From Thermococcus sp. (GTDB lineage: Archaea; Methanobacteriota_B; Thermococci; Thermococcales; Thermococcaceae), in contig WAKU01000106.1 in the NCBI GenBank assembly GCA_015523195.1, positions 1-37,467 of the forward strand: a DNA stretch of 37,467 nucleotides, given 5' to 3'. Both the position numbers and the translations under genes were made by a program. Position 1 is the stretch's first letter. Each line of letters starts with the position of its first letter. This document shows positions 28,068 to 31,176 of the stretch, piece by piece. The notes under the pieces were generated by a model. It searched no databases and had not been told where the DNA came from. It was given only the letters and a program-made list of their open reading frames with translations.

Positions 28068-28312
28068 GTGGGAAGGTTTAGAGAACGGGCTATAAAGATT
28101 TTGGGCCCACATTAAATGATGAATTCTAAAATAATGATTCCACTTTGAAAAATCAATGGATAAAAGCGTGCTTTAAGTTATGACAAATGACAACCCCAAA
28201 TTGCAATTTATTCAATAATTAAAAATATCACGTCAAGATTTCTTATGAATTATTGAGAATTAATTATAAATTTACGGCATAAAGTTTAAATTTCTAAAAA
28301 AGTAGATTAGTA

Positions 28313-28328
28313 TGCCCCTTATGGGGCA
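28313..28328 (+). promoter_or_regulatory. GC-rich hairpin directly upstream of the SD of the secreted-protein gene
   Basis: TGCCCC-TTAT-GGGGCA perfect 6-bp stem, immediately followed by GGAGG (28329-28333) and ATG at 28339. Confidence 0.7.
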
Positions 28329-28338
28329 GGAGGATAGT

Positions 28339-28818
28339 ATGGGGGTTAGGAAGGTCAGCTTAGCCCTGTTCGTGTTTGGGCTCTTTTTGTTTTTGACGGC
28401 AGCCAGCGCCAGTGCCGGCTACACCTACAACAACCACGCAAGTGTCAAAGTTGAGGGCAAGAACATCTTTGGATGGACTATGGCGTGGGTAAAGTCCGAG
28501 TGGACCTTCGCCACGAAGCCAGATGGAACCTTCCTGCTTGACAACGATGACACCTTCCATGAGACTGACCACGGTGGACACTGGCCGGACGATGGTTCCT
28601 GGGGCTACACGAGCACCAACCCGTCCTCGACGGCCCTCTCATTTTACGGCCAGTTCACCCTTCACTCACCCTTCAACTCTATCAGTGGGATAGTCTACAA
28701 CAAGGTCGTCTACCACACATGGGATCACACCTACGCTTGGTACAGGGGCGTTAAGGGTAAGAGCCTTGAGTGGGAATCCCTGCCATTGCCGCCAATTGAA
28801 GTTAGTGTGGACGTTTGA
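28339..28818 (+). CDS. Secreted Cys-free, aromatic-rich small protein (bacteriocin/secreted peptide candidate)
   Basis: Signal peptide MGVRKVSLALFVFGLFLFLTAASASA; mature part GYTYNNHASVKVEGKNIFGWTMAWVKSEWTFATKPDGTFLLDNDDTFHETDHGGHWPDDGSWGYTS... no Cys. Upstream of an ABC transporter cluster. Confidence 0.75.
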   Translation: MGVRKVSLALFVFGLFLFLTAASASAGYTYNNHASVKVEGKNIFGWTMAWVKSEWTFATKPDGTFLLDNDDTFHETDHGGHWPDDGSWGYTSTNPSSTALSFYGQFTLHSPFNSISGIVYNKVVYHTWDHTYAWYRGVKGKSLEWESLPLPPIEVSVDV

Positions 28819-28851
28819 CCCCCAATCTTTTTATTTTTGGGCTTGAACAAG

Positions 28852-29658
28852 ATGCGGGGTGCCATGATGAAGTGGGGAAAAATGCTCGGTCTCATCCTGA
28901 TGGTCCTTGCAGTTATTATGCTACTCCTCCCTGTTTCAACTTATTATATGGGGCACTACAGGGCCTCCAAGTTCAAGGGCGTCCTTGGCCCCGGCAGTCA
29001 GCTCAGGTATTACGGGGTAGTTGGCCAGTTCCCGAGCGACTCTGGAAAGTCGATGTCCTTAGGCTTTGAAGTGAACGTGACCTACCTGCAGGGTGGGGAA
29101 TACAACGTTTCATACAGTGTCTACAAGCTTTTTGGTAACGGCGGCGTGAATGTTGACCGGCTCCCGGAGCTCCCCCTCTACGCGGACTCCATTAAAAAGG
29201 TTAAGGACGGATGGTATCTCTCCAGAGGGGAGGGACTGATTGCGTCCCTTATAACTGACAACATTGACAGAAAAATTTTATTTGGAAAGGGGCACGTCTC
29301 TCCAAGCCCAGTCTATGGCTACCCATTTGTTTACTTCACGGTCTACGGCAATGATTATATCCGATATAATGGAACCTACGTTGCAGTTTCAGTCTCGGTT
29401 TCCCATCCCTGCACGGCGTTCAATTCGATGTACAATATAACGCCCCTCTGCGAAAAACTTTCAAGCCTCTACGGTGTAAATACGAGTGCCGTCGAGAAGG
29501 ACTTGGTGGCCCAGATGTACTTCGGAGGTGGGAACTCGGTACCCACCCAAGATTGGAGGGGCTGGATAAAGTACGGTATCGGCTACAGCTTTCCTGTAAA
29601 CGTGGCACTTGTCCTGATCGGCCTCGTAGTGATGATAATAGAATCCCGGGAGGAATGA
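28852..29658 (+). CDS. Membrane protein with N- and C-terminal TM helices and a large extracytoplasmic domain
   Basis: TM1 LGLILMVLAVIMLLLPVSTYY, TM2 FPVNVALVLIGLVVMII, with about 200 aa between; stop overlaps the start of the ABC ATPase gene (ATGA). Confidence 0.8.
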   Translation: MRGAMMKWGKMLGLILMVLAVIMLLLPVSTYYMGHYRASKFKGVLGPGSQLRYYGVVGQFPSDSGKSMSLGFEVNVTYLQGGEYNVSYSVYKLFGNGGVNVDRLPELPLYADSIKKVKDGWYLSRGEGLIASLITDNIDRKILFGKGHVSPSPVYGYPFVYFTVYGNDYIRYNGTYVAVSVSVSHPCTAFNSMYNITPLCEKLSSLYGVNTSAVEKDLVAQMYFGGGNSVPTQDWRGWIKYGIGYSFPVNVALVLIGLVVMIIESREE

Positions 29659-30515
29659 GATTGGGAGAGGGGATCGAACTTAACCTCAGGGATGTGTGGT
29701 TTGAGTACACTCCATCAAAACCTGTTATTAAAGGAGTGTCCGTATCAGTCAGGGGGGAGAGGATAGGGATCGTGGGACAGAATGGCAGCGGAAAAACGAC
29801 CCTGCTCTCGATCCTCATGGGCTTTCAGCGTCCAAAGGCAGGGGAGGTCATGATAAACGGAATCAACCCATGGACGGAGCGCGAAAAGATTATTAAGACT
29901 TTTAACCCTGCCTTTGAAAAGGCCCGCCTTCCATATGCTATGAAGGTAGGTGAGTTCGTAAAGATCGTCGGGCGTGCAAACGGCGATCCTGAGGGCACAT
30001 CCGCCCTTGCAGATGAGCTTGGTCTATCCAAATTTGAATCGCAGAAGGTAGGCTCACTCTCATCGGGTCAAGAACAACTCCTCTGGATCTTTAGTGCACT
30101 TGCAGACAGCTCTCGTATCCCGGTACTTGATGAGCCCTTCGTCCATCTGGATCTGCATTCTTATGTAAGGGTTTCAAGTGTCCTAAGAAGGAGGTTCCGC
30201 AGTTATATCCTCACATCTCACATCCCGGAGGACGTTGAGCTCCTGGCCGATTCAATCATCGTTTTGGAGCAGGGGAGGGTTATATGGTACGGGAAGGTAA
30301 AAGAGCTCCAAGCAGATGGAGAAGTCTACGATGTCTTCATAAATGACACTGTTCCTCCTCTTAAGGGGATTTTAGGGGATTTCGGCAACATCCTTGTGGT
30401 GCGGACGGAGGGAGAAACCCTCAAACGCCTTATGGACGGGGGAAAGATCTTGGGGTACAAAAGGTCGGGTGTCAGGTATGTCTACGTTAAAGCTAACGGT
30501 GGAAACCTACACTAA
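29655..30515 (+). CDS. ABC transporter ATP-binding protein
   Basis: Walker A GIVGQNGSGKTTLL, signature GSLSSGQEQLLW, Walker B IPVLDEPFVHLD, H-loop YILTSHIPED. Confidence 0.93.
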   Translation: MRLGEGIELNLRDVWFEYTPSKPVIKGVSVSVRGERIGIVGQNGSGKTTLLSILMGFQRPKAGEVMINGINPWTEREKIIKTFNPAFEKARLPYAMKVGEFVKIVGRANGDPEGTSALADELGLSKFESQKVGSLSSGQEQLLWIFSALADSSRIPVLDEPFVHLDLHSYVRVSSVLRRRFRSYILTSHIPEDVELLADSIIVLEQGRVIWYGKVKELQADGEVYDVFINDTVPPLKGILGDFGNILVVRTEGETLKRLMDGGKILGYKRSGVRYVYVKANGGNLH

Positions 30516-31176
30516 GGAGGCAATGGGATCGGTGTTCTTCTGGGAAGTCTTGGGGTTTTTGGCTCTCAGTGAGGCAGGCATCCACTACCTCTACCCTAAG
30601 AATCAACTTCCCTTAGTTGAGTTTATACAGTTCTTAGGGATGCCTCTGTACCTGTTTCTGGTGTTCAACGTGATGTTTCAGGAGAACCGAGTTACGGCTT
30701 TTGAGATAGCCCTCTTCGCTGGATGGAGGGAAGTCGCCTACGGAAAGTTTATAACGGCTTTGCTGTCTCAGGTACCCTTCTTGGTTGTGAACACTCTCCT
30801 CCTGCTGGCGTGGGGGTATGATAGGGTAATGTGGGCGTTGATTGCCATGGGACTAATTTACTCAGGCGCGCTGCTAATGGTGACCCTCGTGGGCAGCAAA
30901 AGCGGATCCTACGTTCTCTCAATGGCCTTTCTCTTCATCCTCCCCATATCGGGTGTTGCCCTCCTCCAGACTCAGGCAAGTCTTGGAAACACGGTGAAGG
31001 GATTCATGGCGTACTTGCTGTACGTTCTGTCTCCTGTTTACACGGCATATGCCGAAGGAAGAGGGCTTTTGGAGTTGAGCGAGGGGAATCTGGTTTTAGT
31101 GGTGGGCATATTGACGGCTGTACTTTATGTCCTTTACGCTTTTTCCTTCAGAGTTCGCAACCTTCGTGTATCGTGA
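30478..31176 (+). CDS. Small ABC-2-like permease (multi-TM membrane protein)
   Basis: MSTLKLTVETYTKEAMGSVFFWEVLGFLALSEAGIHYLYPKNQLP... with several hydrophobic segments; overlaps the ATPase gene by 38 nt. Confidence 0.8.
   Translation: MSTLKLTVETYTKEAMGSVFFWEVLGFLALSEAGIHYLYPKNQLPLVEFIQFLGMPLYLFLVFNVMFQENRVTAFEIALFAGWREVAYGKFITALLSQVPFLVVNTLLLLAWGYDRVMWALIAMGLIYSGALLMVTLVGSKSGSYVLSMAFLFILPISGVALLQTQASLGNTVKGFMAYLLYVLSPVYTAYAEGRGLLELSEGNLVLVVGILTAVLYVLYAFSFRVRNLRVS

Follow-up and report, generated by a model that had tools for sequence, protein, structure and literature searches.

The window analyzed here is a 37,467-nucleotide stretch of Thermococcus sp. DNA (assembly GCA_015523195.1, contig WAKU01000106.1, positions 1 to 37,467 of the forward strand). 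The genome it comes from is designated G000, and G028 is the nearest relative used for comparison. A block of four genes, referred to as S, M, A and P, lies between two genes of the opposite strand, and the features of the locus are as follows.

27051–28112, minus strand: flanking gene, which we take to be deoxyhypusine synthase-like, forming one edge of the insertion site
28313–28334, plus strand: leader before S, an inverted repeat TGCCCC-TTAT-GGGGCA (28313–28328) followed by the Shine-Dalgarno sequence GGAGGA (28329–28334)
28339–28818, plus strand: S, a Sec-secreted, cysteine-free, aromatic-rich protein of 159 aa (from reading frame, composition and hydropathy)
28826–28838, plus strand: T-rich tract directly 3′ of S (from sequence)
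28852–29658, plus strand: M, a transmembrane segment, a beta-rich extracytoplasmic domain and a second transmembrane segment (from reading frame, hydropathy and structural model)
29655–30515, plus strand: A, an ABC ATPase (from reading frame, Pfam and motifs)
30478–31176, plus strand: P, a small permease of the ABC module with 5–6 transmembrane segments (from reading frame and hydropathy)
31184–32230, minus strand: FAD/NAD-binding oxidoreductase (GltD-like) gene, the other edge of the insertion site

The open reading frames and their coordinates bear out an arrangement of four co-directional genes with two overlaps, in which the stop codon of M and the start codon of A share the sequence ATGA at 29655, and A and P overlap by 38 nt (30478–30515). 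S starts at the ATG at 28339, downstream of the Shine-Dalgarno sequence, and its N-terminal end carries a single hydrophobic segment by hydropathy; cleavage is predicted between ASA and G, leaving a mature part of 133 aa with 17% aromatic residues and no cysteine. Composition and hydropathy thus agree with the original prediction of a small, cysteine-free protein with a Sec signal and a mature part of about 133 aa; S is proposed to be an antagonistic protein. T-rich tracts are likewise found 3′ of the S gene at other cassette loci, and the tract at 28826–28838 is a putative archaeal terminator that would part the expression of S from that of M-A-P. M has alternative starts (28852, or 28864/28867), and its model consists of an N-terminal helix, a beta-rich middle and a C-terminal helix, with hydropathy placing transmembrane helices at either end; it is the proposed specificity part of an immunity system. 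A contains Walker A (GQNGSGKT), signature (LSSGQ), Walker B (VLDE) and H-loop (SH) motifs, matches Pfam ABC_tran (E=8.5e-22), and carries some 60 additional, conserved residues at its C-terminus. Elsewhere in the window (2591–6610) there is a 1339-aa open reading frame with a signal sequence at its start; the syntenic G028 contig stops short of this region.

S, M and P match no family in Pfam, NCBIfam, PADLOC or PHROGs, and a PDB sequence search with the three was likewise without a match. Specifically, the S of the window has no Pfam family at E≤1 and seven S relatives lack PF09683 at E≤10, in agreement with the initial remark that lactococcin 972 homology is not recognizable; M and its relatives have no convincing Pfam family, P has neither a Pfam nor an NCBIfam family, and PADLOC (anti-phage defence systems) yields partial ATPase-domain matches to A and none to S, M or P. 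The structural models are weak. That of S (AlphaFold, pLDDT 64) has no significant match in the PDB, the best being the Listeria hypothetical protein lmo2686 (E=0.059, TM ~0.28), which was dismissed as noise, and the predicted structure of M (pLDDT 75) has no match at E≤0.001. No unrelated structural or enzymatic family was thus found for S, which would have spoken against its proposed role; equally, no toxin-like motif or fold was seen in it, and this counts against reading it as an antagonist.

Within 94 Thermococcales genomes the M profile matches 14 and the P profile matches the identical 14, and neither has a match in other genera among 115 genomes of the phylum. The cassette family is patchy and confined to one genus within these 115 genomes, and with 14 of 94 genomes occupied it is not a core component of the Thermococcales; a wider search with a conserved stretch returned two Thermococcus MAGs only, both already in the set. 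P marks 20 loci in the 94 genomes, of which 18 are assessable, the two G026 loci being broken by contig ends and left out. Relatives of S are found at 11 loci in nine genomes, every one adjoining M, and S is never seen without M-A-P, as expected if the secreted gene is co-conserved with the ABC genes.

The loci occupy several positions. Site A, flanked by the deoxyhypusine synthase-like gene and the FAD-oxidoreductase gene, is occupied in G000, G028, G022, G009, G024 and G030; sites B and D lie near gapdh and glyS (G038, G043, G022, G030, G007, G028, G000); and further sites are elsewhere on the chromosome (G100, G101, G024/G005 at site E, and G099). Site A is empty, with its flanking genes adjacent, in 20 of 20 cassette-free genomes sampled: there are about 24 bp between the oxidoreductase and synthase genes where the oxidoreductase is present, and the next gene is close to the synthase where it is not. 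Moreover, between G000 and G028 the dS of S-M-A-P is 0.37–0.43, as compared with 0.30 for the synthase gene and 0.06–0.20 for the other genes compared nearby. The cassette values exceed those of every neighboring gene compared, indicating that the cassette has a separate history. The empty sites and raised dS accord with the suggestion that this is an acquired block. The AT-rich stretch offered initially as a sign of acquisition is real: GC is 23% at 28113–28311 and 55% over the window. A high AT content in an upstream promoter region is, however, not in itself evidence of acquisition. A virus or plasmid origin was dropped: viral contigs contain no relative of S or M, plasmids and phages none of S, and plasmids none of M or P.

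The S proteins at site A and at the other sites have pairwise identities of only 16–26%, and profile comparison between the two groups is not significant. Since the direct comparison fails in this way, homology of the site A proteins with the others rests on context, and we treat them as probable relatives because they share position and size, a signal peptide, the leader and weak motifs.

The cassettes fall into two states. S is intact at nine loci (G000A, G028A, G022B, G038B, G043B, G101C, G030D, G007D and G028D), and at the other nine of the 18 assessable loci S is deleted, a relic, frameshifted or stop-mutated while M-A-P persists, in a sample that is small, consists of non-independent loci and takes several of them from metagenome assemblies, where a frameshift may be an artefact (above all in G022). 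The forms of loss are varied. First, in a second cassette of G000 (contigs C11/C12) the signal peptide of S is left, with its mature part deleted and M directly after it; the relic (L080, 1128–1042) has 24 residues that are 96% identical to those of G028. Second, S of G100 has a nonsense change (TGG to TGA) with M, A and P intact and 96–98% identical to those of G101. Third, G024 has a signal-peptide-like relic of S at site A. Fourth, S is absent from G009, from G030 site A, from G024/G005 site E, and from G099, where the S leader is retained. Finally, S of G022 site A is frameshifted, though M is broken as well and the locus may thus reflect general decay or poor assembly. (G022 has several frameshifts in S and M in L015 and L019, which may be assembly errors or decaying cassettes. 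The second G000 cassette, on L079/L080 from contigs C12 and C11, has a deleted S, two different M genes and a junction at the contig end.)

Strong purifying selection on M-A-P continues where S is gone. In the S-less site E cassettes of G024 and G005, dN/dS is 0.06 for M, 0.04 for the second M gene (M′), 0.04 for A and 0.12 for P, with dS of about 1 or higher, and M-A-P therefore serves the cell without S. Between G000 and G028, dN/dS is 0.14 for M and 0.01 for S; this near-frozen S is consistent with a constrained effector and has no sign of an arms race. Such near-invariance, together with the lack of any toxin motif, would also suit a lineage-specific cell-surface or signalling protein encoded beside a housekeeping-type envelope module, with no role in conflict; we regard this as improbable, for it sits poorly with the patchy spread, the clean empty sites, the several insertion sites and the repeated one-sided loss of S. 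Taken by itself, the S-less pattern is also compatible with S being simply dispensable.

A further feature is the presence of second M genes. Five loci have two (G030A, G000D, G024E, G005E and G099), all of them without S, and the two M genes of a locus are 34–73% identical to each other. Two M genes are thus present at five of the nine loci without intact S and at none of the nine with it (Fisher p=0.029, a post hoc value, with G024E and G005E sharing ancestry). One of the additional M proteins, in G030, shares 45% identity with that of the window, as if it guarded against an S of the window type.

These patterns bear on what M-A-P does. The tight co-directional operon, and the finding of S with M-A-P only, are what would be expected if M-A-P were machinery devoted to exporting or maturing S. 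Export by M-A-P is unlikely, however, because S itself carries a Sec signal peptide and M-A-P is kept at nine loci without intact S, with purifying selection measured in G024/G005; second M genes, moreover, occur where S is missing and nowhere else. We consider this reading quite unlikely, and of the originally predicted bacteriocin-like export/immunity cluster it is the immunity part that is favored, while export is disfavored by the Sec signal of S and the survival of M-A-P beyond it. Alternatively, M-A-P could be a pump conferring resistance to antibiotics, drugs or envelope stress, with S a dispensable accessory, for instance a decoy or sensor protein released by the cell. Makarova et al. 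(2014, PMC4158269) suggest drug resistance for highly diverged archaeal ABC operons, and the selection on M-A-P without S is in keeping with such a pump; nonetheless, this reading leaves unexplained the strict dependence of S on M-A-P, the restriction of additional M genes to loci that have lost S, and the divergence of M together with S across loci, and we think it unlikely.

We therefore favor immunity as the role of M-A-P, and propose that this Thermococcus locus is probably a producer/immunity cassette of bacteriocin-like type. S would leave the cell by the general Sec pathway and act outside it, against related cells without the matching M. M-A-P would form an ABC transporter complex in the producer membrane, in which M, anchored at either end and with its large extracytoplasmic domain, would recognize S (or S together with its target), and the ATPase A and permease P would spend ATP to remove or neutralize S. 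Loss of S with retention of M-A-P would produce an immune non-producer, and addition of a second, different M would widen the immunity. A lost weapon with its shield kept, and two shields only where the weapon is absent, yield a testable prediction on the specificity of immunity. We infer the label bacteriocin from sequence, and use it in that qualified sense.

Known systems offer instructive parallels. Lactococcin 972 (PF09683) loci similarly encode a small secreted cysteine-free protein, with genes for a membrane protein and an ABC component downstream, and S shares the Sec signal and cysteine-free mature part, with A as the downstream ABC component; S is, however, larger and without a PF09683 match, and M is not of the bacteriocin-associated membrane type and has no Pfam match. 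The known target of lactococcin 972 is lipid II (PMC8538875). That family is marked by lipid II binding and inhibition of septum formation, and lipid II, to our knowledge, is not expected in archaea, Thermococcus included. In pneumococcal streptococcin B (scbABC), which is lactococcin 972-like, the genes predicted for immunity/transport are retained in strains that lack a functional peptide (PMC11796350), the same one-sided loss as is seen for S. In LanFEG/LanI/LanH systems an ABC ATPase, a small permease and an extra membrane or surface protein provide immunity rather than export (PMC8538875), and the layout of M-A-P is comparable to LanFEG(-LanH/I) or, in loci of the lactococcin 972 type, to the BC genes; A, however, scores 72.5 bits against a TIGR03740 cut-off of 309.75, P has no LanE/LanG-type family match, and S is a Sec substrate the size of a folded protein and not a modified peptide. 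By analogy, the cassette may work like lactococcin 972-type or LanFEG-protected loci, though its sequences place it in neither group.

Among archaea, the ABC part resembles in gene order and topology the fast-diverging "dark matter" ABC operons, island genes with an arCOG00194 ATPase, a 6-TM permease and a putative binding protein (Makarova et al. 2014, PMC4158269); the Thermococcus cassette similarly has an ATPase, a permease with 5–6 transmembrane segments and a binding-protein-like membrane protein in one operon, but a secreted S partner, its loss and a leader are not mentioned in the text considered. VARTIG modules of Thermococcales are likewise variable islands with a proposed role in conflict or self/non-self recognition, but have large immunoglobulin-domain proteins at their center, and the term "ABC transporter" is absent from their description (PMC8416519). 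The proposed role of S as a secreted antagonist of relatives would resemble that of the archaeocins (halocins and sulfolobicins), and in the open-licence literature we found archaeocins from haloarchaea and Sulfolobus and none from Thermococcus. We know of no sequence relation between the known archaeocins and S. If the proposal is true, this would be the first system of its kind seen in this group, and would add a candidate antimicrobial protein that is heat-stable, along with three protein families that lack known relatives. Both T. kodakarensis and T. barophilus are genetically tractable, and a patchy mobile cassette in Thermococcus would therefore open antagonism at hot vents to genetics.

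The leader upstream of S is a further shared element. Its sequence in the window is identical in G028, and at most other S loci it takes the form TGCCC...GGGGGGGG-CA-ATG, abutting the start codon and with a G run of 7–13; it lies just before S in L071, L020, L072, L074, L075, L078 and L080, and near position 10575 in L081. Covariation in the hairpin is weak, so its interpretation as a covarying RNA hairpin was set aside and it is described as a conserved element only. The variable G run at the start codon could be a means of translational control or simply a variable tract.

Scanning for TGCCCN{6,14}GGGGGGGN{2,6}ATG gives 19 matches in the 94 genomes. Seven precede S, an S relic or the former place of S, and others precede the gene of a different secreted protein of 133 aa, which is present in six genomes including G000 and is broken in G028 and G022. 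Where the contig allows, four genes follow it, encoding a membrane protein of 340–350 aa, a permease of ABC-2-like type, another, small membrane protein, and an ABC ATPase. The loci of this second class are as follows.

L155, 382–1853, minus strand: second-class locus
L156, 3241–5930, minus strand: second-class locus
L168, 224–3556, minus strand: second-class locus
L169, 3433–6753, plus strand: second-class locus
L157, 6007–11411, plus strand: membrane proteins to ABC ATPase, with the secreted gene just upstream

Comparisons of the second-class secreted protein with S, and of its membrane protein with M, are not significant. The presence of a common rare leader at two unrelated cassettes suggests joint regulation. 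We tentatively raise the broader possibility, which we hold with less assurance than the proposal for the locus itself, that Thermococcus has two or more mutually unrelated classes of small antagonists exported through Sec, each with an ABC-type immunity operon and linked by a leader that would control translation, and that strains lose the weapon, keep the shield and stack shields. If so, it would be the first bacteriocin-and-immunity ecology described in hyperthermophilic euryarchaea. The common leader also provides a route to other, unrelated cassettes that escape protein searches.

Two other observations concern the gapdh/glyS region in which sites B and D lie. A secreted protein of about 400 aa is encoded near the cassette site in several strains (L019, 8602–9807; L020, 9214–10404; L074, 13439–14668). 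The same hotspot has pairs of genes, one for a small MNT-like nucleotidyltransferase and one HEPN-like (L071, 11049–11688; L074, 10899–11592; L078, 4446–5085), judged by eye to be a possible toxin-antitoxin pair.
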